Shown here: positions 32,595 through 44,470 of the stretch, in pieces | Numbering within the stretch: the stretch's first letter is position 1 | Layout of the letters: each line of letters opens with the position of its first letter | Source: Oerskovia paurometabola | GTDB taxonomy: Bacteria > Actinomycetota > Actinomycetes > Actinomycetales > Cellulomonadaceae | Direction: 5' to 3' | Assembly: GCF_016907365.1 (NCBI RefSeq) | Contig: NZ_JAFBBV010000001.1 | Location: 3,596,001-3,660,000 of the forward strand | DNA: 64,000 bases | Position numbers and translations under genes: made by a program | The notes under the pieces: model-generated | Database searches by the model: none | Seen by the model: the letters and a program-made list of their open reading frames with translations, nothing else | Told to the model about the DNA's origin: nothing

Positions 32595-33260
32595 CTATGG
32601 GGCGTCGCGGCGCCGCTCCTGCCAGCGGGTCAGCAGGCCGTCAGGGACCTCCTCGGTCGTGATCGCGAAGGTCCGGTGGTCGCACCACTGGCCCTGGATG
32701 TGGAGGTAGCGCTCGCGCACGCCCTCGTCCCGCAGGCCCAGCTTCTCCACGACGCGCAGGCTCGGACCGTTCTCCGGGCGGATGTTGATCTCGATGCGGT
32801 GCAGGCCCAGGACCTGGAAGCAGTAGTCGACCGACATCGCGACCGCGGTGGGGGTCACACCGCGTCCTGCGACGTGCTCCCCCACCCAGTACCCGACGCT
32901 CGCCGAGCACAACGACCCGTACGTGATGCTCGACACCGTGAGCTGCCCGACGAGCTCGCCGTCCAGCTCGACCGCGAACGGCAACGTCGTGCCCGCGCGC
33001 GCCTGGGCGGACAGGATGCGCACGTACTCCCCGAAGGTCGGCGGTCCGCCGCCCGCGCCGGGCCGGGGCGACGTCGCCTCCCAGCGTTCGAGCCACGACG
33101 CGTTGCGGGCACGCAACGTCATCCACGCGTGCCCGTCCTTGCGGCGCAACGGTCGCAGCACCACGCTGCCGTCGGTGGCGTCCTCGCGGAGCGTCACCGG
33201 CCACGGCTTCGACACGCTCCACGTCCGCGCGAGCTTGCTCGTCATAGTTCCCGTGCCCAT
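32595..33260 (-). CDS. GNAT acetyltransferase, RimJ/RimL type
   Basis: A 221-residue acetyltransferase. TVSSITYGSLCSASVGYWVG is the typical RimJ strand-turn, HVAGRGVTPTAVAMSVDYCF holds the acetyl-CoA loop (family Q/RxxGxG/A), and GLHRIEINIRPENGPSLRVVEKLG follows. The homologue in the same locus of other actinobacteria is annotated as an alanine N-acetyltransferase of ribosomal or other proteins; the target is unproven. An ATG at 33245 is an alternative start. It is 81 bases from sepX on the same strand and divergent from the 5-formyl-THF cyclo-ligase gene. Confidence 0.88.
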   Translation of the reverse strand: MGTGTMTSKLARTWSVSKPWPVTLREDATDGSVVLRPLRRKDGHAWMTLRARNASWLERWEATSPRPGAGGGPPTFGEYVRILSAQARAGTTLPFAVELDGELVGQLTVSSITYGSLCSASVGYWVGEHVAGRGVTPTAVAMSVDYCFQVLGLHRIEINIRPENGPSLRVVEKLGLRDEGVRERYLHIQGQWCDHRTFAITTEEVPDGLLTRWQERRRDAP

Positions 33261-33500
33261 CGATCGTCCGTCCTCGGCTGCAGAGCCCGAGACGTCGTGC
33301 CTTCGAGCACCAGGATCACCGACGCGACGCCTGGTGGACAGGGTGTATCACGACCTGACACACCGACACCAGCAGCAGCATGCACCCGGGCGGACGGCAC
33401 GGCATCCGTTGCGCACCCTCGACCCTCCGCGATCCGGACCTTTCCGTCCGACGACGGCACCACGGACACTTCTTGCCCGAACCTTTGCGACAATAGGCGC

Positions 33501-34139
33501 ATGAGTGGCCCGGTTCAGCCGTATCCCCTGCATGGAAGCATCGAACCCGAGGACGCGAAGGAGATCCTCCGAAAAGCCATCCGCACTGCTCGATCCGCAC
33601 GCACCGAGCGCCGCCGCGACGAAGCGGCCCAGGCGATCGCCGACGTGATCGAGACCATCCCCGAAGTCCTGTCCGCGCGGTGCGTCGCGACGTACGCGGC
33701 GCGCCCCACCGAGCCCGGCACCACGGCGATGCTCGAGCGGCTCTCCGCCCGGGGCGTCCGCGTCCTCCTGCCCGTCCTGGGCGCCGGCCTCCAGCGTGAC
33801 TGGGCCGAGTTCGACGGGGCGCACGACCTCCAGGTCCGCGCCCCGGGCAGGCCGCCCGAGCCGAGCGGCCCCACGCTCGGGGCGGCCGCGCTCGCCGACG
33901 CCGACGTCGTCATCGCGCCCGCGCTCGCGGTCGACTCGAACGGGGTCCGCCTCGGGCAGGGCGGCGGCTGGTACGACCGCGCTCTCGAGCACGTGCGCCC
34001 CGGCACCAAGGTGATCGCGGTCGTCTTCCCCGAGGAGGTCTACGACGCGACCGACCGTCCGCTGCCCCTCGAGAAGCACGACCGCACCGTGGACGCTGTC
34101 GCGACGCCCCTCGGGTGGCGCTGGATCGGTCAGGACTGA
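33501..34139 (+). CDS. 5-formyltetrahydrofolate cyclo-ligase
   Basis: A 212-residue enzyme that uses ATP to turn 5-formyl-THF into 5,10-methenyl-THF in folate recycling. RKAIRTARSARTERRRDEA is the N-terminal phosphate/folate-binding helix, VLLPVL lies in the core, and the diagnostic VDSNGVRLGQGGGWYDRAL (family RLGxGGGYYDR) is near residue 150, followed by VFPEEVYDA and DRTVDAVATP. The ATG at 33501 is the normal start. It is divergent from the GNAT gene, and a strong terminator follows. The conserved gene order around it is discussed in the findings. Confidence 0.93.
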   Translation: MSGPVQPYPLHGSIEPEDAKEILRKAIRTARSARTERRRDEAAQAIADVIETIPEVLSARCVATYAARPTEPGTTAMLERLSARGVRVLLPVLGAGLQRDWAEFDGAHDLQVRAPGRPPEPSGPTLGAAALADADVVIAPALAVDSNGVRLGQGGGWYDRALEHVRPGTKVIAVVFPEEVYDATDRPLPLEKHDRTVDAVATPLGWRWIGQD

Positions 34140-34296: not shown

Positions 34297-36993
34297 TCAG
34301 GGGACCAGCGTGAGCGTGTCCTTGGTGCCGGAGCGCACGGCCTCGGCCGTGAACGGCCACGCGTAGGTCTCGCCCGCGGCCCACGTGCCGAGCTGGTCCT
34401 CGTAGTGCTTGGACGCCGGGTGCCCGGAGGTGCCCGTGACGGTGACCCAGGTCGAGGCGTCCAGGTCGGCGAGGTCGACGACCATGCGCATCGACGGACC
34501 CGACGTGACCTCGAAGCTGCCCGAGGCCGCGTCCCACGACGTCGCGTTGACGATCGACGAGCCTCCCGGCATGGCCACCGTGCGGGGGTTCACGTAGGCC
34601 CGGACGAAGCCCGGGACGGCGTCGTTGTCGAGGACCACGTGACCGAGCGAGAGCGTGTGGAGCTTGCCCCACTCCCAGTCGGTCGTCTTCTTCGACAGCT
34701 CGGTCGTCAGGTCGAGGCGGGCCGAGGTGATCGCCCGGTTGAGGACCTCGTCGCGGGTCTCGACGACGCTCACGGTCTGGCGGTCGTCCCAGAACGCGTT
34801 GGTCTCGTCGGCGAGCATGTTCTGCACGACGGCGAGCCAGCGGCTGCCGCCCGCGGGACGGATGCTCTCCGGCAGGTCGTCCCAGAACGTGATCTCGAGC
34901 AGGTTGCGCCACACCGCGGCGAAGTACGCGGCCGCGGCCGAGTCCTTGTCCATGTGCTGGTCCCAGTCGGCGAGGAGGTCCTGCCCCTCGGCCGCGAAGT
35001 CGTTGCGCACCCCCTTGCTGTTCTCGATGTCCTGCTCGAGCAGGAGGGGCACGAGGGCCGCGGCGTACGGGCTCCAGTCGTCGTTCTGGATCTCGTTCAT
35101 GGTCTGGACGTCGACCTTGCGGCCCGAGTCGATCTCCTCCTGCAGGAGGGTCCGGATGCGCTGCGAGCGGTAGCCGTAGTCCCAGTCCGTCGTGAGGAAC
35201 GGGGTGGTCCCTGCCGGGAGCACCGCCTGGTTCGCCGCGACGACGAACCCCTCCTCGGGGTCGACCACGCCCGGCATCTGCGCGGCGGGCACGTAGCCGG
35301 TCCAGTCGTAGCGCTCGTCCCACCCGGGTCGCGGCCACGTGCCGTCCGACGGCACGGGCCCCTCGACGTTCGCGCGCACCGGGATCCGGCCCGGCGCCTG
35401 GTAGCCGATGTGCCCGTCCGTGGTCGCGAAGACGATGTTCTGGGCGGGGACCTCGAACAGGGCCGCGGCGGCCTTCATGTCCTCGGCGTCCGCCGCGAGG
35501 TTGAACGCGAAGACGGCGTCGGCGGTGCGGCCGGGCTCGAGCGCGGTCCACCGGAGCGAGACCTCGTAGTCGCCGAGAGGGGTGCCCTCGGTCGGTGAGG
35601 CCGCGACCTTGTCCATGGGCAGGACCGTCGAGACGATCGGTCCGTGGACCGTCGAGGCGACCTTGAGCTCGACGTCCTCGCCGCCGTTGACCTTGATGGT
35701 CTCGGTGCGGGTCTCGAGAGGCTCCCAGTCGTCGCCCCGCAGGTACGTGTCGTCACGCACGCGCTCGATGAAGAAGTCGGTGACGTCGGCGCCCATGTTC
35801 GTCAGGCCCCAGGCCAGGTCGGCGTTGTGCCCGATGATCACGCCGGGGAAGCCCGCGAACGAGAACCCCGAGACGTCGAACCCGCAGGCCGGGCTCACCT
35901 CGTTGCAGTGGAGGCCGACCTGGGCCCACACGCTGGGGGCCTGGAGGGACAGGTGGGGGTCGTTGGCGAGCAGCGGCTTGCCGCTGGCCGTGTGCTCGCC
36001 CGAGACGACCCACGAGTTGGACCCGGTGCCCTCGCCGCGTCCGACGAGCACGGGCACGGCCGCGAGCGCGGCGTCGGCCGCGGCGACGGCCGACTGGAGC
36101 TCGCTGCCCGCGAGGGTCGGCGCGTACGCGGTCTGTTCCGCGCCCTCGACCTGGACGGGTTCGCTCGTGGTCGGCACCTCGGACGGGTCGAGGATGGGGA
36201 GGTTCGCCTGGGCCGGGTACGCGGGGAAGAGGGTGCCCACACGGGCCACGTCCTGCGCGACCTTGGCGGGGTCCTGGGCTCCGCTCGAGGCTCCCGCGAA
36301 GCCGCCGTACGCGATGGCGCGCTCGAGCTCGTCGTCGTAGTTTCCGCGCAGGTCCCAGGCCATGGCCTTGAGCCACGCGAGCGAGTCGATCGGGTCCCAG
36401 GGCTCGGGGTCCGGCACCGAGACGCTCGTGCCGAGCACCGTGTACTCGAGCGCGATCTCGCTCGGGTCGCGGTCATCGAGGTAGGCGTTGACGCCGTCCG
36501 CGTAGGCCTGGAGGTAGGCCTTGGTCTCGGGGGCGAGGATCTTCCACTCCTCCTCGGCGACCAGGCGCCAGCCGAACGTGCGCGTGACCTTGTCCGCGTC
36601 GATCGCGACCTGGGAGTCGCCCACGAGCTCGGCCAGACGACCCGCGGTCACGTGGCGGCGGTAGTCCATCTCGAAGAAGCGGTCCTGCGCCTGGACGTAG
36701 CCCTGGGCGCGGAAGAGGTCCTCGGGCGTGTCGGCGTAGATCTGCGGTACGCCCTGCGCGTCGCGGAGCACGCTGACCTCTGCGTCGAGGCCCGTCAGGG
36801 TGAGGGTGCCGTCGGTCTGCGGGAGCGGTCGGCGGACGGTGACGACCGTGAACACCGACGCCGCGACCAGGAGCACGACGACGAGCGCGGCGATCGCGAT
36901 GATGCCGCGACGGGCGCGAGAACCTCCCCGGCGGGCAGCAGGGACGGGCGGCGGGGGGTCGCCGTGGACTCCGGCGGGGACATCAGCAGACAC
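34297..36993 (-). CDS. Penicillin acylase family protein
   Basis: An 898-residue member of the N-terminal-nucleophile hydrolases. An uncleaved-looking N-terminal helix (about 28-50) would anchor or export it. The alpha chain contains DAQGVPQIYADTPEDLFRAQG and the RFFEMDYRRHVTAGRLAELVG stretch. The predicted autocatalytic cleavage site is EGTGSNSWVVSG, so Ser in SNSWVV becomes the N-terminal nucleophile of the beta chain. LLANDPHLSLQAPSVWAQVGL and GFSFAGFPGVIIGHN follow. The family hydrolyses amides of beta-lactams or acyl-homoserine lactones; the natural substrate is unknown here. ATG at 36991-36993. Confidence 0.9.
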   Translation of the reverse strand: MSADVPAGVHGDPPPPVPAARRGGSRARRGIIAIAALVVVLLVAASVFTVVTVRRPLPQTDGTLTLTGLDAEVSVLRDAQGVPQIYADTPEDLFRAQGYVQAQDRFFEMDYRRHVTAGRLAELVGDSQVAIDADKVTRTFGWRLVAEEEWKILAPETKAYLQAYADGVNAYLDDRDPSEIALEYTVLGTSVSVPDPEPWDPIDSLAWLKAMAWDLRGNYDDELERAIAYGGFAGASSGAQDPAKVAQDVARVGTLFPAYPAQANLPILDPSEVPTTSEPVQVEGAEQTAYAPTLAGSELQSAVAAADAALAAVPVLVGRGEGTGSNSWVVSGEHTASGKPLLANDPHLSLQAPSVWAQVGLHCNEVSPACGFDVSGFSFAGFPGVIIGHNADLAWGLTNMGADVTDFFIERVRDDTYLRGDDWEPLETRTETIKVNGGEDVELKVASTVHGPIVSTVLPMDKVAASPTEGTPLGDYEVSLRWTALEPGRTADAVFAFNLAADAEDMKAAAALFEVPAQNIVFATTDGHIGYQAPGRIPVRANVEGPVPSDGTWPRPGWDERYDWTGYVPAAQMPGVVDPEEGFVVAANQAVLPAGTTPFLTTDWDYGYRSQRIRTLLQEEIDSGRKVDVQTMNEIQNDDWSPYAAALVPLLLEQDIENSKGVRNDFAAEGQDLLADWDQHMDKDSAAAAYFAAVWRNLLEITFWDDLPESIRPAGGSRWLAVVQNMLADETNAFWDDRQTVSVVETRDEVLNRAITSARLDLTTELSKKTTDWEWGKLHTLSLGHVVLDNDAVPGFVRAYVNPRTVAMPGGSSIVNATSWDAASGSFEVTSGPSMRMVVDLADLDASTWVTVTGTSGHPASKHYEDQLGTWAAGETYAWPFTAEAVRSGTKDTLTLVP

Positions 36994-37023: not shown

Positions 37024-37055
37024 TATGATTAGCACTCAGAAGACCCGAGTGCCAG
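37024..37055 (+). promoter_or_regulatory. CIRCE-like HrcA operator and -10 upstream of ruc
   Basis: TTAGCACTC (37029-37037), nine bases, then GAGTGCCAG (37047-37055). The CIRCE consensus is TTAGCACTC-N9-GAGTGCTAA, so only two positions of the right arm differ. A TATGAT -10 (37024-37029) overlaps its left end, the usual geometry for HrcA repression. It is 110 bases upstream of the GTG at 37165. Confidence 0.8.
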
Positions 37056-37164
37056 TCCGGCTGTGTCCTGCCGTCGACCCGACGCGCACGCCGGACGCCG
37101 CGGAGCAGGCTCGCACCCGCCCCGTGACGACCGCACCCACCCCCGCGACCTCTGAGGAGAGACC

Positions 37165-37497
37165 GTGCCCACCTACGCGTACACGTGCACTGCCTGCGGC
37201 CACGCCTTCGACATCCACCAGGCGTTCACCGACGACGCGCTCACCGTGTGCCCCGAGTGCGGCGGTCGCCTGCGCAAGGTCTTCTCGTCGGTCGGCGTGA
37301 CCTTCAAGGGCTCGGGCTTCTACCGCACCGACTCGCGCTCCTCGAAGTCGTCGAGCACGGGCTCGACCACGCCCGCGACGCCCGCGAAGTCGTCCGACTC
37401 GTCGAGCAGCTCGTCCTCGGGGTCGTCGAGCACCGGGTCGTCGTCGAGCGGTTCGTCGTCGAGCTCGTCGGGCTCCTCGACGCCGTCCGCGAGCTGA
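37165..37497 (+). CDS. ruc: FmdB-family zinc-ribbon chaperone (Ruc-like)
   Basis: A 110-residue protein with an N-terminal FmdB zinc ribbon: YTCTACGHAFD and LTVCPECGGRLRKVFSSVGV give two Cys-x2-Cys knuckles. VTFKGSGFYRTDSR follows, then a disordered tail made almost entirely of Ser with Gly and Thr. M. tuberculosis Rv0991c (Ruc), with the same zinc ribbon plus disordered tail, is an oxidation-activated holdase controlled by HrcA. The CIRCE-like operator upstream and the location near the cyclo-ligase gene support orthology. GTG at 37165 has a GAGGAGA ribosome site. Other FmdB proteins were once linked to formamidase regulation; I favour Ruc. Confidence 0.85.
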   Translation: MPTYAYTCTACGHAFDIHQAFTDDALTVCPECGGRLRKVFSSVGVTFKGSGFYRTDSRSSKSSSTGSTTPATPAKSSDSSSSSSSGSSSTGSSSSGSSSSSSGSSTPSAS

Positions 37498-37596
37498 CCG
37501 CACTCCGGACCGTGCACAGGTAGGCCCCCGAGGCGCCTGTCCACAGGCCGCCGCGCCGCGCCGCGGGCCGCCCCGGCGGGCACCTAGCGTCGCCGC

Positions 37597-38283
37597 ATGG
37601 CTCCTCCTGCATCGACCGCGACCGGCCCGTCGGGCCGCCGTGCATCCACTGCCCGACGGCGCCTGCGCGCCCTCGTCTGGCGCGCACGTCTCGTGGCGCT
37701 CGCCCTGGGCTGCGGACTGGTCGCCGCCGTCGTGGTCGACCGCCTGAGCCCTCCCCCGCCGGACACCCGGCCCGTGGTCGCGACGGCACGTGCGGTCGAG
37801 GCCGGCACGGTGCTCGTCGAGGAGGACGTCACGGTCGTGCACGTCGCGGCCGCGCTCGCCCCCCAGACCTCGCTGACCAGGGTGAGCGACGCCGTCGGGC
37901 GAACCACCTCGGTCGCCCTGCCGCCCGGCCAGACGCTCTCCCCCTCGCTCGTCGCCGCGGGCGACCTCGCCGCCATGGCCCCCACCGGGACCGTCGTGGC
38001 GCCCGTGCGGCTCTCCGACCCCGACGTGGCGGCGCTCCTGCATCCCGGCGACCGGGTCGACCTGCTCGCGGCCACGGCCAGCGGCGAGACCGGGACCGGC
38101 AGCCACCTCGCGCGGCGCGCCCTCGTGGTGGCGGGGACCCCGGCGCCAGCCTCGCCCGGTGGTCTGCTCGGTGGCGGGACGCCCGAGGGCGGCGTCACGC
38201 TCGTCGCCGTGCTCCCGCAGGAGGCCGCCGCGCTCGCCGGGGTCGGCGACTGGGGCGGCCTGTCGGTGGTCCTGGTGCCCTGA
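37597..38283 (+). CDS. SAF domain protein (RcpC/CpaB-like)
   Basis: A 228-residue protein with an N-terminal basic stretch, one membrane helix (about 29-49) and a SAF domain beginning ARAVEAGTVLVEEDVTVVHV, then VGRTTSVALPPGQTLSPSLV. The pattern matches CpaB/RcpC proteins of Flp-pilus systems, but no other pilus gene is seen nearby. In actinobacteria this SAF gene commonly stands alone between the FmdB and MscL genes. The ATG at 37597 was used. The domain should face the periphery of the cell; its role is unknown. Confidence 0.8.
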   Translation: MAPPASTATGPSGRRASTARRRLRALVWRARLVALALGCGLVAAVVVDRLSPPPPDTRPVVATARAVEAGTVLVEEDVTVVHVAAALAPQTSLTRVSDAVGRTTSVALPPGQTLSPSLVAAGDLAAMAPTGTVVAPVRLSDPDVAALLHPGDRVDLLAATASGETGTGSHLARRALVVAGTPAPASPGGLLGGGTPEGGVTLVAVLPQEAAALAGVGDWGGLSVVLVP

Positions 38284-38424
38284 GCCGGACCGTCCCCTCC
38301 GAGACGTGCGGAGTCGCGCCGCAACGAGCATGGAAGGATCACGTCCGGACCTCGCTCGTGCCACGGGCGCCGCCGCGAGACCGCCGCGCGCACCCGGTCC
38401 GCGCCCTCTCGAAAGGAACCCCGT

Positions 38425-38898
38425 ATGCAGAACGTGTTCAACGGCTTCAAGGACTTCGTGCTCCGCGGCAACGCGATCGACCTCGCGGTCGGTGTCGTGA
38501 TCGGTGCGGCCTTCACCCAGGTCGTCACGGCGATCGTCGACGGCCTCATCAACCCGCTCGTCGCGGCGATCTTCGGCAAGCAGGACCTGAGCAAGGTCTG
38601 GACGTTCGAGGTCAACGAGGCGATCTTCAGCTTCGGCCTCGTCCTCGACGCGCTCTTCAAGTTCCTCTGCGTGGCAGCGGCGCTCTACTTCGTCATCGTG
38701 CTGCCCATGAACCACCTGGCGGCCCGGCGCAAGAAGGGCGAGGAGGCCGCCCCCGCGGCCCCCGCAGAGGACGTCCTGGTGCTCCAGGAGATCCGCGACC
38801 TGCTGGCCGCGCAGAACGCGCGCGGCGCTGGTCCCGCCGGTCCTGCGACGGGCACCGGCCCGTTCGGCGGCCCGACCGACGGTCCTGGCGGCCGCTGA
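38425..38898 (+). CDS. mscL: Large-conductance mechanosensitive channel
   Basis: A 157-residue homopentameric channel that opens under membrane tension to release solutes on osmotic downshock. MQNVFNGFKDFVLRGNAIDL is the amphipathic N-terminus and first part of TM1. AVGVVIGAAFTQVVTAIVDGLINP lines the pore, the periplasmic loop is short, and TM2 runs FGLVLDALFKFLCVAAALYF. A C-terminal bundle with VLVLQEIRDLLAAQ is followed by a Gly/Pro tail longer than usual. A ribosome site (AAAGGAAC) lies upstream of the ATG at 38425. A clear terminator follows. Confidence 0.95.
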   Translation: MQNVFNGFKDFVLRGNAIDLAVGVVIGAAFTQVVTAIVDGLINPLVAAIFGKQDLSKVWTFEVNEAIFSFGLVLDALFKFLCVAAALYFVIVLPMNHLAARRKKGEEAAPAAPAEDVLVLQEIRDLLAAQNARGAGPAGPATGTGPFGGPTDGPGGR

Positions 38899-38916
38899 CC
38901 GCTCACGCGCCGTCCA

Positions 38917-38950
38917 CGAACGCCCCGCCGGTCTTCCGGCGGGGCGTTCG
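38917..38950. terminator. Terminator after mscL
   Basis: Perfect 15-bp arms (38917-38931 and 38936-38950) with a TCTT loop lie 18 bases after the mscL stop. Confidence 0.85.
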
Positions 38951-39024
38951 TACTCGGGCCACGCCACACCTGCAGCGGGCGTCGAGCGGGACCGGCAGAG
39001 CAGGCAGAGCAGGCCGAGCGACCC

Positions 39025-39255
39025 TCAGGACCAGTGCGGCGGCACGTCGCGCAAGAGCTCGGCGTCGTGGCTGTCGGTCGACGCGCCCGGTCGGACGTCG
39101 CCCCAGACCGCGGCGTCGTCGTCGGACCCCAGGCCCGCGACGCCCGCCTGCTCGGTGCCCGGGCGCACGACGCGGCGCGACCGACGGCGCGGCGCGGTGG
39201 GCGCTGCCGGGTCGGCCGGGGCGTCGGGGGCAGGGGCAGGATCGACGGGGGTCAC
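39025..39255 (-). CDS. Small conserved-type hypothetical protein
   Basis: A 76-residue protein, Pro/Ala-rich at the N-terminus, then basic (RRRSRRVVRPG), then acidic, ending ELLRDVPPHWS. I recognise the LLRxxPPHW ending as recurring in small actinobacterial proteins but know no function. Third-position G/C is high throughout. It lies 89 bases downstream of the helicase-like gene on the same strand, so the two may be co-transcribed. Confidence 0.6.
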   Translation of the reverse strand: MTPVDPAPAPDAPADPAAPTAPRRRSRRVVRPGTEQAGVAGLGSDDDAAVWGDVRPGASTDSHDAELLRDVPPHWS

Positions 39256-39344
39256 GACCCCATTGTCTCAGCGCCCCGGCCGGCCCCGACGCGTCCCCTG
39301 GCCCCCGCCAGCCACGATGCGAACGGCCGACCCCGGCCGACCCG

Positions 39345-42300
39345 TCAGTCCGTCCCGAACTCGTCGTCCGCGACCGTCGGCACGACGACGATGCGGTCGC
39401 GCCCACCCGTCTGCGCGATCCCGCCGATCTCCGGCAGCCGCGCGTCGCGCACCGCCTGGACGACCCGGCGGATACGCTCGGCCTCCTTCGCGGGGTCGAG
39501 GAACGCCGCAGCGGACCACACCTGCGCGACGACCCAGCCCGTACGCTCGAGACGCTCGGCGAGCTGGCGGTCGCGCACCCGCACGCTGCGTTCGGCGACG
39601 TAGGCGTCGTCGTCGGTCAGGACCGCGACCAGCAGCTCGCCCGGGATGTCGGGGTGACCGACGACCAGCGGGATCCGGTCGCCGCCGACCACGCCGTAGT
39701 CCGTCTCGACCACGAGCCCCGCACGCCACAGGCGCTCCGCGAGGTCGATCACGAGCCGGTCGGGGTTGCCGCCCACGTCCACGCCGTTGCCGAGCGTGAC
39801 CTGGTCGGCGCGGCCGCTGCGCTGCTCGGCGAGGTCGAGGACCTCCGCGAGGAGCTTGGCCCCGCGCCCGCGCAGACGCTCGGGGTCGAGGTCGGACGCC
39901 GTGAAGCACGTGACGACGTGCAGGCGCCGACGGGTCGAGCCCAGGGTGTCGAGGAGCATGGCGTCGCCGCCCGGTGCGTTGAGCACGCCGAAGCGGTGCA
40001 GCACGCGACCGTGCGGGGTCCGCCCGTACCCGATGGACAGGACGATCGCGTCCCGGGTGAGCCCCGCGACGCCCGAGACCTCGGCGACCACGACGGGCTC
40101 GGCGCGAGCGCCCGAGAAGAACACGGCCAGGGCCGGGTTCTGCCGGACCTCGCCGAGGAGCGCGTCACGGATCCGGTCGGCGTGCACCGAGCTCACCGTG
40201 ACGATCGCGAGCGACTCCTCGGGTCGGGTCATGGCGTGCTCGATCGCGATCTCGACGACGCGGTCGACCTCGGCCTGCGTGCTCTCGACCGCCCCGGACG
40301 CCGGGTCCGGCATGCCGGCACCGTCGACCAGGTCGAGGTGGACGAGCGGCTCGGCCCGGGGCAGCGGGCTCGGGCGCAGGACGCCCTCGTAGCCGTGCGC
40401 GGCGAGGAAGGCCGTGAGGTAGGGGTCGCGGCGGGTCCCGCCCGCGGACAGGGCGACGGTCGGCAGGATCTCCGCGAGCTCGCCCACGGTCGTGCCCGAG
40501 GCGGCCCGCGGGTCGCCGAACACGACGACCTGACGACCGCGCGCGAGCGAGGACAGGACCAGCTCGACCGGGATGTGCTGCGCGGCGTCGAGGATGACGA
40601 GGTCGACGGTGCGCGTCGGGGTGAACAGGTGCGGCACCAGGGTCGGGGACGCGACGACGCACGGCCGCAGGCGCCGCAGCACCTCGGGGTAGCGCTCGTG
40701 GGCGTCGCGCAGGCTCGTCATCCGGCCTTCGAGGAGCTCGGTGAACAGCGCCTCGGCCTCGGCCCGGTGGTCGCGCATCGCGGCGCCGAGGTGCTCGCGC
40801 ACCGCGAGCCGGACCGGAGCGGACAGTGCGGCGACGTGCGTGCGGTCGAGGTCGCGGAACCGGCGTGCCAGCGCTTCGAGGCCCGCGCCGTCCTGGCCCG
40901 CGAGCGCCGGGTCCTGCGCGAGGATCTGCTCGAACACCGAGCTCCACCAGGCGAGGTCGAGCTCGGGTCCCACGAGCTCGGGCTCGACGCGGCGGGCCGA
41001 GAGGTCGTCGAGCAGGTCGCCGAGGCCCTCGTCGCGCAGGGTCCGCAGCGCGGAGGTCCGCGCGGGCAGGTTGTCGAGGGCCTCCTGGTCCTCGCCGAGG
41101 CTCGCGAGGCGCACGGCCAGCTCGCTGATGGGCAGGTCGAGCAGGTCGGACCCGACGGGGGTCGTGGCGAGGACGGGGTCGAGGTACTCGAGGTCGATCC
41201 GGACGGCTTCGTACGTGTCCTCGATCGCGGCGAGCCCCTCGGGGAGGGTCGGCCACCCGCCGCGCGGGCACTGCGCCTGCCAGACCGCGCGCTGCGCCTG
41301 GACCTGGATGAGCGCGGCGTGCAGGTCGGGGACGCGGACGCCTGGGCGGAGCATGTCCTTGGCCTGCCGGCGCAGGCGTCGGCGAAGCCCCCAGCCCATG
41401 TCGATGCCGTTCTCCGCGCGCCACTCGCGCGTGCCCGTCGCCTCGACGAGGTCGGTCGCGGTGCGCTCGAAGATCATGGGTTGGAACGCGTCGAGCGTCC
41501 CGCGCATCCCGCCGAGCATGCGGAGCTGGTCGCCCCACTGCCGGACGGTCGTGGCGGTGGTCAGCCCCGTCGTCGTCGCGACGGAGGCCACCTGCTCGCG
41601 GAGCTGGGGCAGCGTCTGCCCCGACAGCCGCTGGACCCGCAGCAGGGCGTCCTGCGCGTTCTCGGCGCTCGTGATGTCCGCGCCGAACCAGGGCGTCGAC
41701 GTCGAGCGGAGCGTGAAGGCCCCGACCTCGGCGGCGCGCACGAGGCGGGCCGAGAGCTCGGCCCGGCGCTCGGCGCCGATGCGGACCGTGACCTCGGGGC
41801 CCAGGCGGACGGTCGTGCCGGGGGCGGGGCGCTGCGCGGTGAGCCGGGCGAGGGCCTGCAGTGCCGCGTAGGCGGACACGCCCCAGGGCTCGCGGACCAG
41901 GTGCAGGGACTCGATGTAGCCCGAGAGCTGTGCGCGCGCACCCAGCAGTCCGTCGCGGACGCGCGCGACGGCGTCGGTGTCGACCGTCTCCCCCTCGGCG
42001 GCCATGGCCCCCAGGAGGCGCTGCGAGGCCGTGGTCCGCCACGTGGGTTCGGGGGCGATGTCGAGCAGCAGCCCGTCGAGGCCGAGCGCGGCGAGCCGGG
42101 TCGAGAGGGTCTCCGCGGAGCGTCGGTGGCCCGGGACGTAGAGGATGCTGCGGCCGCTCGCCGCGGCCTCGGCGACGACGGCTGCGATGGTTCCTGCGGT
42201 GTCGGCCCCGGGGGGCGCGTCGACGAACAGGTGGCTGCCGGTCGCGAGCGCGTCGATGACGTGCCGCTGCGCGGGGTCGAGGTCGCCCACGCCCCGCTCC

Positions 42301-43454
42301 TGGGTCGGGTCGGCGTCGCCGACGCGCGGGGCCGGGAGCTCGCGCGCGAGCGCGGTCGCGGCCTCCTCGGAGCCGGCGAGGGCCGCGACGACCTCGTGCC
42401 GTTCGAGGCCCGACGCCAGCTCGTCGAGGTCGTCGACGAGGACCTGGCCGGGGTGGACGAAGGTCCCGACGAGGACGCGCTGCGCGAGCTCGAAGTCCCC
42501 CAGCACGGCCTTGCCCACGGCGGTGATGCGGGCCAGCGCGTCGGAGGGGTCGAAGCCTGCGGGCGTGAACGCGCTGCGCGCGAGGGTCACGGGGTCGATC
42601 AGGCCGCCGTGGGCGCGCAGCGTGCGGGCCAGGACGGGGTTGATCTCGACGGTCGGCTCGAGCGTGAGGTCGTAGTCGGTCTCGCTGTCGCCGCGCGGGG
42701 TGAGCGTGAGGGGGCGCAGGAGGACGGGGGCGCGCACGGTCCGCGGGAGGGTGGGCTCGGCGTCGGGTCCTTCGGCGCCGTCGCGCGCGGGCCCTTCCCC
42801 CTGCCCGACGGCGCCGCTCCCCGTGGGCGGGGTGGTCGCGGTCTGCGCCGGGTCGGCCGGGTCCTCGGCGGCGGGTCCTGCGGGCAGGCCCGTCGCGCCG
42901 TCGATGGTCCGGCTGTACGTGGTGCCCGCGACGTGCGCGAGGGCGGCGACGTCGTCGGTCGCGAGGCGCGAGGGTTCGCCCTCGGTCCAGGTCGTGACGC
43001 CGATCGCGAGGTAGGTGGGCGCGACGCCGTACCGCTGGGCGTGCTCCTGCGAACGGACGACGACCGCGCGCGCCCGGCGTCGGGCGGCAGGCAACGACGC
43101 GCCCTCGCGGAACAGGTTGGACAGACGGGTCGGGCGCCCGGCGAAGAGCTGCGCCACCCCCGAGGGGTGGGCTGCCGTGAGGTCGACGACCGCGTCGCCC
43201 AGCAGGCCGATGTCGGCGAGCGACGACCCGCCCGCGAGCTCGACGAGCGAGGCCCGCCACGACCGGACGGCGTCCTCGACGAGCTCGGCCGTGGTCGGCG
43301 CCTCGACGAGGGTGGGCCTCGCGAGCGTGGTGGGGCCGTCGACGTCCGGGGCCGCACCGCGGGCGGCACGCTCGTGCGCGTCCTGGTCGGTGAGCGGCCG
43401 GGCGGGATCGGCCACGGTCTCGCGGGCTGATGGGTTGCGGGCGGCTGCGTTCAC
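39345..43454 (-). CDS. Degenerate superfamily 1 helicase-like protein with nuclease-like C-terminus
   Basis: A 1369-residue protein. The N-terminal ~380 residues contain an unrecognised domain, an Ala/Pro linker and a second domain. The helicase-like core begins at DPAQRHVIDAL (about 393). The Walker A site reads DAPPGADTAGT (about 411), without GK[S/T]. The Walker B position reads LVILDAAQHIP (about 950) where DEA(S)Q is expected, and motif III is GDPRAAS. The late region has LLDTLGSTRRRLHVVTCF, resembling the TRAR motif VI. The C-terminus (DRLVIDLAERLWRAGLVVET, ERLERTGWVVAQVWS) follows restriction-endonuclease-like domains of the MTES_1575 kind. It is probably unable to hydrolyse ATP. High GC3 and intact length argue that it is maintained. 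Confidence 0.8.
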   Translation of the reverse strand: MNAAARNPSARETVADPARPLTDQDAHERAARGAAPDVDGPTTLARPTLVEAPTTAELVEDAVRSWRASLVELAGGSSLADIGLLGDAVVDLTAAHPSGVAQLFAGRPTRLSNLFREGASLPAARRRARAVVVRSQEHAQRYGVAPTYLAIGVTTWTEGEPSRLATDDVAALAHVAGTTYSRTIDGATGLPAGPAAEDPADPAQTATTPPTGSGAVGQGEGPARDGAEGPDAEPTLPRTVRAPVLLRPLTLTPRGDSETDYDLTLEPTVEINPVLARTLRAHGGLIDPVTLARSAFTPAGFDPSDALARITAVGKAVLGDFELAQRVLVGTFVHPGQVLVDDLDELASGLERHEVVAALAGSEEAATALARELPAPRVGDADPTQERGVGDLDPAQRHVIDALATGSHLFVDAPPGADTAGTIAAVVAEAAASGRSILYVPGHRRSAETLSTRLAALGLDGLLLDIAPEPTWRTTASQRLLGAMAAEGETVDTDAVARVRDGLLGARAQLSGYIESLHLVREPWGVSAYAALQALARLTAQRPAPGTTVRLGPEVTVRIGAERRAELSARLVRAAEVGAFTLRSTSTPWFGADITSAENAQDALLRVQRLSGQTLPQLREQVASVATTTGLTTATTVRQWGDQLRMLGGMRGTLDAFQPMIFERTATDLVEATGTREWRAENGIDMGWGLRRRLRRQAKDMLRPGVRVPDLHAALIQVQAQRAVWQAQCPRGGWPTLPEGLAAIEDTYEAVRIDLEYLDPVLATTPVGSDLLDLPISELAVRLASLGEDQEALDNLPARTSALRTLRDEGLGDLLDDLSARRVEPELVGPELDLAWWSSVFEQILAQDPALAGQDGAGLEALARRFRDLDRTHVAALSAPVRLAVREHLGAAMRDHRAEAEALFTELLEGRMTSLRDAHERYPEVLRRLRPCVVASPTLVPHLFTPTRTVDLVILDAAQHIPVELVLSSLARGRQVVVFGDPRAASGTTVGELAEILPTVALSAGGTRRDPYLTAFLAAHGYEGVLRPSPLPRAEPLVHLDLVDGAGMPDPASGAVESTQAEVDRVVEIAIEHAMTRPEESLAIVTVSSVHADRIRDALLGEVRQNPALAVFFSGARAEPVVVAEVSGVAGLTRDAIVLSIGYGRTPHGRVLHRFGVLNAPGGDAMLLDTLGSTRRRLHVVTCFTASDLDPERLRGRGAKLLAEVLDLAEQRSGRADQVTLGNGVDVGGNPDRLVIDLAERLWRAGLVVETDYGVVGGDRIPLVVGHPDIPGELLVAVLTDDDAYVAERSVRVRDRQLAERLERTGWVVAQVWSAAAFLDPAKEAERIRRVVQAVRDARLPEIGGIAQTGGRDRIVVVPTVADDEFGTD

Positions 43455-43825: not shown

Positions 43826-44470
43826 TCAGCCGAAGAGCTTGGACCCGTGCTTGAGCAGGACGCCCGCGATCATCAGGACGACCCACGTCGCCGTCAGGAA
43901 CACGTCCGCGTCCGAGCGGACGAAGGACAGCGCACGCTCCTGCGCCCTGGCCGGCAGGTACAGGTTGCCCTCGATGATGTTCCAGTGCAGCAGCGTCATG
44001 AAGACGAGCGTCGTCGAGAGCGTGACCAGCAGGCACCAGGGGCACAGCGCGCCGATCACGAACATCGACTGGTAGAAGAGCCAGTAGGCGAAGATCAGGC
44101 CCAGCGCGTACACGACCTGTGCGGAGAACATGAACCAGCGCGGGAACCGCACCCCTCCCAGGCTCGCGACCGCGATCGTGATCACCACGGGCTCCGCGAT
44201 CAGCCCCAGGAACGCGTTGGGGAAGCCGAACAGCGACGACTGCCACGCGACCCCGACGGCACCGCAGGACAGGACCTCGTTGACGTTGCACGAGAGCTCG
44301 GCCGCGGGGTTCGCTGCGAGCAGGACCGCGTCGTAGGACAGGACGAACGAGGCGGTCAGGCTGATCAGCGCGGAGACCAGCATGGTGCCGAACACCCACT
44401 GCCTGCTGTGCCGGAACCCCTCGATGCCCGGCGGGTCGGTCCTACGGTCGTCGTGCAGAACGTCGCTCAT
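43826..44470 (-). CDS. Vitamin K epoxide reductase (VKOR) family protein
   Basis: A 214-residue integral membrane protein with about five helices. The loop cysteines are in LSCNVNEVLSCGAVG and the active-site CPWC is in VIGALCPWCLLVTL. Ser/Asn-rich FGFPNAFLGL, the quinone-side motif, is present. Bacterial VKOR reoxidises a DsbA-like partner and passes electrons to menaquinone, replacing DsbB. No DsbA gene is adjacent; the closest candidate in the window is the LRV-DsbA protein at 17659. ATG at 44468-44470 follows a GAAGGGC ribosome site. Confidence 0.93.
   Translation of the reverse strand: MSDVLHDDRRTDPPGIEGFRHSRQWVFGTMLVSALISLTASFVLSYDAVLLAANPAAELSCNVNEVLSCGAVGVAWQSSLFGFPNAFLGLIAEPVVITIAVASLGGVRFPRWFMFSAQVVYALGLIFAYWLFYQSMFVIGALCPWCLLVTLSTTLVFMTLLHWNIIEGNLYLPARAQERALSFVRSDADVFLTATWVVLMIAGVLLKHGSKLFG

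Follow-up and report, generated by a model that had tools for sequence, protein, structure and literature searches.

A widely conserved pseudohelicase–pseudonuclease of Oerskovia paurometabola, apparently inactivated in place more than once and encoded beside a small PPHW protein

We have analysed a window of 64,000 nucleotides from Oerskovia paurometabola (contig NZ_JAFBBV010000001.1, positions 3,596,001 to 3,660,000) and describe a gene on its minus strand, at 39345..43454, whose 1369-residue product has the build of a helicase joined to a nuclease but has lost the catalytic residues of both. By sequence it is an orthologue of proteins made up of a DUF4011 domain, a superfamily 1B (SF1B) helicase of the UPF1–Dna2 type and an MTES_1575 nuclease domain, and in most of the order it lies beside mscL and the gene for a small protein ending in PPHW. 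That an ATPase-dead protein has been maintained in most of the sampled genomes of the order suggests that what was once an enzyme now serves some pathway in a non-enzymatic role. An initial annotation of the window had given the gene its correct coordinates and length, leaving the strand unstated, and had taken the product for a helicase–nuclease-like protein whose ATPase motifs are erased. The finding is real and larger than was stated there: the pseudohelicase is notable for how widely it is spread, for having arisen repeatedly at a single locus, for a second domain that is also dead and for the small protein that is its neighbour or fusion partner.

The Walker A region (residues 411–422, VDAPPGADTAGT) is degenerate, and in the segment at 42186..42221 (minus strand, residues 412–423, DAPPGADTAGTI) the Lys position, 419, is Thr. 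Walker B at 40572..40598 (minus strand, residues 953–961) reads VILDAAQHI with Ala at the Glu position, 957, and motif III at 40497..40520 (minus strand, residues 979–986) reads FGDPRAAS; all three motifs are as the annotation had described them. We aligned the window protein with the 120 best listed of 637 matches, giving 121 rows. Position 419 is Val in 98 of these, Ala in 11, Ser in 6, and Thr, Ile and Glu in 2 each, and Lys in none; position 957 is Ala in 103 and Ser in 18. Residues D412, P414, D418, D951, D981 and R983 are invariant in all 121 proteins, and the invariance of the first three indicates that the Walker A loop of this family is not random. No displaced intact P-loop, for which the annotation had allowed, is present: the string [AG]x4GK[ST] is found nowhere in the window protein, and in the seven dead orthologues of the order that do contain it, it never lies at the Walker A column. 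Set against the intact orthologue L051, the window protein has GDPRAAS for GDERQLPP in motif III and SGVAGLTRD for QGDERD in motif V.

Retention is lower in the motifs. Of the columns that are invariant in 35 intact rows, the 41 within ATPase motifs have a mean retention of 0.40 across 88 dead rows and the 187 others one of 0.59 (p 6e-4). None of the 88 dead rows has the Lys and 2 % have the Walker B Glu, but Gly416 of the P-loop survives in 94 %, the Gly and Asp of motif III in 90 % and 93 %, and G1163 in 100 %; the residue following the lost Lys is Thr in 45 %, and 45 columns are at least 93 % conserved. From the retained invariant columns and the confident fold described below, together with the lost Lys and Glu, it follows that the frame of the motor has been kept and its fuel site has not.

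The second dead domain is the MTES_1575 (Vsr-like) nuclease fold at 39465..39743 (minus strand, residues 1238–1330), recognised by PF18741 with 47 bits against a cut-off of 38.2. In a Microbacterium protein it has been described as a novel nuclease domain of the Vsr type (PMC3710099, excerpt). Its model has the order alpha-beta3-alpha-beta-alpha with a predicted local distance difference test score (pLDDT) of 89.5, and on our reading of the list of elements the lost catalytic positions would fall on the second and third strands. These positions, deduced from the sequence rIDlav...AIECDG of the intact relatives, are 1262 for the Asp, which is Pro in 120/121 rows and Ala in 1/121, and 1279 for the Glu, which is Leu in 121/121; D1281 and the arginines at 1292, 1294 and 1296 are invariant in the family. 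Judged from these substitutions, the nuclease active site is dead in the lineage of the window, which goes beyond what the annotation had noticed. Orthologues that are ATPase-dead and keep both nuclease acids are L052, L158, L161, L168, L170, L171, L172, L182, L183, L216, L244 and L245; they may be ATP-independent nucleases that still cut in some lineages.

The MTES_1575 domain is the only one that Pfam finds above cut-off in the window protein. The N-terminal DUF4011-like region lies at 42960..43307 (minus strand, residues about 50–165). DUF4011 itself (PF13195) reaches 12.6 bits in the window copy against a cut-off of 22.2, in a match confined to residues 238–276, and is above cut-off in orthologues L051 (29 bits, its residues 33–167) and L058 (51.2 bits). 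The domain order in L051 is DUF4011, AAA_11, AAA_12, MTES_1575. The predicted structure of residues 229–1340 (pLDDT 89.7, predicted template modelling score 0.75) has, by structural comparison of the model, both RecA-like domains of the SF1B fold. Its nearest structural relatives are Dna2, IGHMBP2, UPF1, Senataxin and Aquarius, the top single VIA-align match being Dna2, with an identity to Dna2/UPF1-like relatives of about 13–17 % over the aligned part; a sequence search of the PDB gave no significant relative (best E 0.36). The superfamily 1 layout with a C-terminal nuclease-like domain proposed in the annotation is supported. A conserved extra C-terminal domain (GLPI.AYS..L..LV.WL.SD...RT), which we take to be winged-helix-like, is carried by 35/107 orthologues of the order and 8/9 tested rows from outside it (for example P0119, P0087, L149, L156 and L058) and is absent from the genus of the window.

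The reading frame is intact and is not decaying, in agreement with the annotation. The guanine plus cytosine (GC) content at its three codon positions is 79.5/52.7/95.8 %, matching the coding-strand expectation, and the ratio of nonsynonymous to synonymous substitution rates (dN/dS) in five within-genus pairs is 0.079, 0.084, 0.109, 0.131 and 0.159. By region, in three pairs, the linker at residues 166–237 is loose (0.40–0.60) and the DUF4011-like region (0.027–0.053), the second RecA-like domain (0.016–0.066) and the nuclease domain (0.033–0.061) are tightly held. Ratios against other genera are higher (L063 0.346, L067 0.322, L072 0.410), synonymous sites in these pairs probably being saturated. 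By these sequence comparisons fold and sequence are under purifying selection. A pseudogene or sequencing error is rejected, given the open frame, its presence in 7/7 genomes of the genus (that of the window included) and the low dN/dS.

The best matches to the window protein are named Oerskovia. A search of the order, which is presumably Actinomycetales, with a 12-row alignment as query gave a match in 118/119 genomes, including 114/114 that are at least 90 % complete (one of them only at E 5.7e-4, several partial); some of the order matches are not orthologues, since one genome has no match and several matches are partial or to longer paralogue-like frames. We read 107 orthologues besides that of the window, one per genome, leaving 11/119 genomes unread. 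Lys is absent from 100 of them, present in 6 and unreadable in 1, and the Walker B Asp-Glu is present in exactly the same 6. The replacement varies by family, the loop reading GTGQT, GTGGT, GTGAT, GSGLT or GSD, and in one family it is hardly recognisable (DEQTGRHSADD). Relatives named among the best 80 of 571 matches are Cellulosimicrobium, Isoptericola, Promicromonospora, Cellulomonas, Luteimicrobium, Actinotalea, Rarobacter and Ruania, with Arthrobacter, Psychromicrobium and Georgenia named further. The conserved loss that the annotation had anticipated holds for the 79/79 readable of 80 named loci, none of which has the Lys and which include Cellulomonas and Cellulosimicrobium (Microbacterium was not identified by name); it does not hold throughout, for orthologues with intact motifs, which the annotation had said would speak against its reading, do exist at the same locus: both GK[ST] and Asp-Glu are preserved in 6/106 readable orthologues of the order. 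A query with the window protein alone matched just 26/296 genomes of the phylum. Outside the order full-length orthologues occur in 7/92 genomes: five of family f102, at the mscL locus with the loop GTGRT and a changed Walker B, one of f90 with GTGRS and one of f9 that is intact, the last two lacking the locus markers (these codes denote families of the genome sample).

The six Lys-bearing orthologues belong to families f4 and f74. The f4 type was identified as Dermatophilaceae, with matches named Pedococcus, Phycicoccus, Oryzihumus and 'AAA domain-containing protein'. Lys and Asp-Glu are both present in 120/120 listed matches to an intact query and in 0/82 further matches of other families; the two sets were picked by closeness to intact and dead queries, respectively, and the split therefore shows consistency and not frequency. 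The genes conserved downstream are mscL, one for a SAF-domain protein, one for an fmdB-type zinc ribbon and that for 5-formyltetrahydrofolate cyclo-ligase; galU and moeA follow further on. Among loci whose downstream sequence reaches 3 kb or more (5/107 were too short), at least two of these six markers, counted regardless of orientation, are found at 6/6 intact and 84/96 dead ones; of the 12/96 dead loci with fewer than two, 8 belong to the rearranged family f79. Because the intact and most of the dead copies share the mscL–SAF–fmdB locus, they mostly represent, on this evidence, a single gene that was inherited at its site and lost its ATPase there. The family was accordingly not dead from the start but descends from an ordinary helicase that was inactivated repeatedly.

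In trees computed without the motif columns the dead f4 rows L055, L222 and L215 fall within the intact rows and away from the large dead group. The approximately unbiased (AU) test does not reject a single dead clade on 41 rows (p 0.208) and does so when the f102 and f90 rows are added (p 0.00016). The starred branches, by the Shimodaira–Hasegawa-like approximate likelihood ratio test (SH-aLRT), force three changes, on quick trees rooted on intact outgroups. We conclude from the trees that the ATPase was lost at least twice and probably three times, although the pattern would also be compatible with an intact copy having taken the place of a dead one at the locus.

The small protein, of 76 residues, is encoded at 39025..39255 (minus strand) and ends in ...WGDVRPGASTDSHDAELLRDVPPHWS, with a profile match at G000:C1:3635028-3635141. 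The peptide has the C-terminal signature WG...PPHW. The window copy has no match in Pfam or PADLOC and none above cut-off in NCBIfam. A search of the 107 order loci with a profile of the tail placed it adjacent downstream in 69 (in 66 it ends no more than 400 bp away), joined to the C-terminus of the large protein in 20, distally in 2 and nowhere in 16, 2 of which lie at contig ends; the profile is not independent of these loci, as they supplied 49 of its 51 seed tails, and it admitted weak matches to about E 0.02. A strict pattern is met with in 52/107 loci (20 fused and 32 separate, two of these more than 1 kb off) and in 49/80 named loci, against 0/104 on the antisense strand and none in upstream stretches. 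In L192 there is one match far from the large gene. The open reading frame that the annotation had pointed out just downstream is thus a real small gene.

The tail is fused in the intact-type L051, L154, P0122 and P0125, and fused and separate states require 9 changes on the FastTree tree; this repeated fusion is a better argument for a functional link than adjacency, which could be old synteny. In family f79 (L175, L189, L191, L199, L200, L203, L241 and L242) the mscL–fmdB neighbours are gone and the PPHW gene is still beside the pseudohelicase gene in 8/8 loci. Across the class the peptide occurs in 70/98 genomes, one copy each (matches down to E 0.01), 58 of the 70 having no full-length match to the large protein. 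Where PPHW loci of class genomes without the large gene were placed, 10/17 are near mscL or fmdB and 7 near neither, 3/20 giving no profile match. The PPHW gene seems from this spread to be the older resident of the locus, since the peptide is found without the large gene and often at the same neighbours; in most of the order and in f102 the large gene is found immediately upstream of the PPHW gene.

The convergent neighbours in the window are mscL at 38425..38898 (plus strand; PF01741, 120 bits), conserved in much of the order, and a SAF-domain (CpaB-like) protein at 37597..38283 (plus strand; PF08666), also a conserved neighbour. Further along the syntenic region are a penicillin acylase, a frequent neighbour, at 34297..36993 (minus strand; PF01804, 778 bits) and 5-formyltetrahydrofolate cyclo-ligase at 32676..34139 (plus strand; PF01812, domain residues 295–478), whose open frame probably starts too far 5'. 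A VKOR-family protein is encoded upstream of the large gene and on its strand, at 43826..44470 (minus strand; PF07884, 109 bits). A 643-residue frame at 37036-38967 (minus strand), antisense to mscL and the SAF gene, was rejected as a gene. A 1690-residue antisense open frame at 38358-43430 (plus strand) is broken over the large gene in 6/10 relatives and open in 4, which is partial evidence against it as a gene; it is probably a by-product of high GC.

We consider the most likely function of the window protein to be that of an ATP-independent, non-cutting scaffold that binds nucleic acid, after the logic of PriA and RecC, and put the whole explanation at about an even chance. The two RecA-like domains and the nuclease-like domain would act as a static clamp, hoop or landing platform on nucleic acid, and the PPHW peptide, in trans or fused, would serve as a docking tail for a partner. 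The role of scaffold or DNA sensor suggested in the annotation is likewise putative. A wider proposal, for the order and a further family of the class, is more tentative and somewhat less probable: that a DUF4011 helicase–nuclease was captured at the mscL–PPHW locus, lost its motor several times independently, and is now the non-enzymatic hub of a new core complex docked by the single-copy PPHW peptide. If true, a housekeeping nucleic-acid machine in nearly every genome of the order would have been made from a doubly dead helicase–nuclease. Several points weigh against the scaffold. No partner enzyme was found; the gap in retention between motif and other columns is real, yet not large; both nuclease acids are retained in 12/100 ATPase-dead orthologues; the adjacency of the PPHW gene is partly just old synteny, as the peptide also occurs in class genomes that lack the large gene, frequently next to mscL; and in f90 the large gene and the PPHW match of the genome are on different contigs. 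Among the papers listed by literature searches, judged by titles and the beginnings of abstracts and with subscription papers mostly outside the scope, none is on this protein or on PPHW, nor was any title among the 15 of 104 listed relevant to the PPHW motif.

Of the alternatives, the strongest, which we still consider unlikely, is a scaffold on the RNA side that binds RNA, the ribosome or RNA polymerase, as UPF1, Aquarius, Senataxin or HelD do. Three of these are among the nearest structural relatives, but the top match, Dna2, is a DNA helicase–nuclease and the nuclease-fold domain also points to DNA; the fold alone does not decide.

Somewhat more doubtful still is a retired defence helicase–nuclease that acts as guard, decoy or sensor, binding phage DNA or anti-defence proteins and signalling without unwinding. 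Its relatives include the anti-phage ProA and Hhe of NCBIfam and PDC-S37 of PADLOC, so that a guard role by descent is possible, but the distribution argues against it. Defence genes are usually patchy in their spread, whereas 118/119 genomes of the order match this gene, for the most part at a single locus next to mscL, fmdB, galU and moeA, and it is under purifying selection. The scores are far under the NCBIfam cut-offs (ProA, NF058533, 337.6 bits against 1500; Hhe, NF042953, 170.1 against 2000), the PDC-S37 match (327.1 bits) is likewise partial, and all three are strongest across the C-terminal third. A DUF4011 gene can also be core elsewhere, flanking a defence hotspot in every P. aeruginosa isolate according to an excerpt of PMC10250203; passages of PMC10952713 do not mention Hhe or DUF4011. 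Neither the locus, which is a housekeeping one, nor the score supports a defence-island gene, and the link to defence drawn in the annotation is not supported for the window copy.

A working ATPase with a rearranged P-loop is highly improbable. Gly416 and the Gly-Asp of motif III are mostly retained in dead rows, and Thr follows the lost Lys in 45 % of them, as it would expect, but these rows lack the Lys altogether and nearly always the Glu, the loop in the family of the window protein carries the invariant acidic residues D412 and D418, and the window protein has no other P-loop. The last alternative, a decaying relic without function, to which the different drift of the catalytic motifs between families might point, has next to no probability and is contradicted by the selection data (dN/dS 0.08-0.16), the long open frames in 107 orthologues (bar cuts at contig ends), the matches in 118/119 genomes and the 45 conserved columns.

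To our knowledge few bacterial pseudohelicases are known, and the present one looks to be core throughout an order, having been inactivated at its locus, as it appears, more than once, with intact orthologues still present there. It allows a natural experiment, since related bacteria that can be cultured carry this gene either with or without its motor. The names 'AAA family ATPase' and 'DNA helicase' carried by some of these proteins would be misleading for most of the order, and attention is drawn to an uncharacterised small protein spread over the class.

Compared with ProA, Hhe and PDC-S37, which it partially resembles by profile, the window protein differs in that its active-site residues are gone and its gene is core, syntenic and vertical. 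The PriA of D. radiodurans is of another helicase superfamily and has no known nuclease domain. Like the window protein it is a conserved core helicase whose Walker A and B have been lost across a clade; it differs in having a known role. It has no ATPase or unwinding activity, retains DNA binding, and there is evidence that it interacts with DnaB; the Lys has become Arg in Deinococcus-Thermus, as in the f102 and f90 loops, and the same change in E. coli PriA is 'sufficient to abolish' a property that the passage does not name (PMC4504706, excerpt).

Replacement of RecC is less likely as a role, because the genome has a separate PDDEXK_1 pair; no partner was found. The pair, at G000:C1:1487457 and 1491233 (near 1.49 Mb), consists of neighbouring proteins with open frames of 1164 and 1571 residues and is probably a break-resection enzyme of the AdnAB/AddAB type. 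RecC itself, unlike the window protein, has active partners in RecBCD; VIA-align listed neither RecC nor AddB, which is evidence neither way. The helicase-like domains of RecC are inactive and are RecB-type rather than UPF1/Dna2-type. Its nuclease-like domain, which lacks catalytic features, forms a hoop for single-stranded DNA (PMC1185551, excerpt). With PriA and RecC as precedents, a role as clamp or hoop is conceivable for the window protein. Eukaryotic Dna2 and the UPF1-like SF1B helicases have the helicase-core fold in common with it and are active ATPases. The intact Dermatophilaceae-type orthologues share with the window gene the domain order and the mscL locus, with the PPHW tail fused in some, and differ from it in keeping the Walker A Lys and the Walker B Asp-Glu and, in L051, the nuclease acids.

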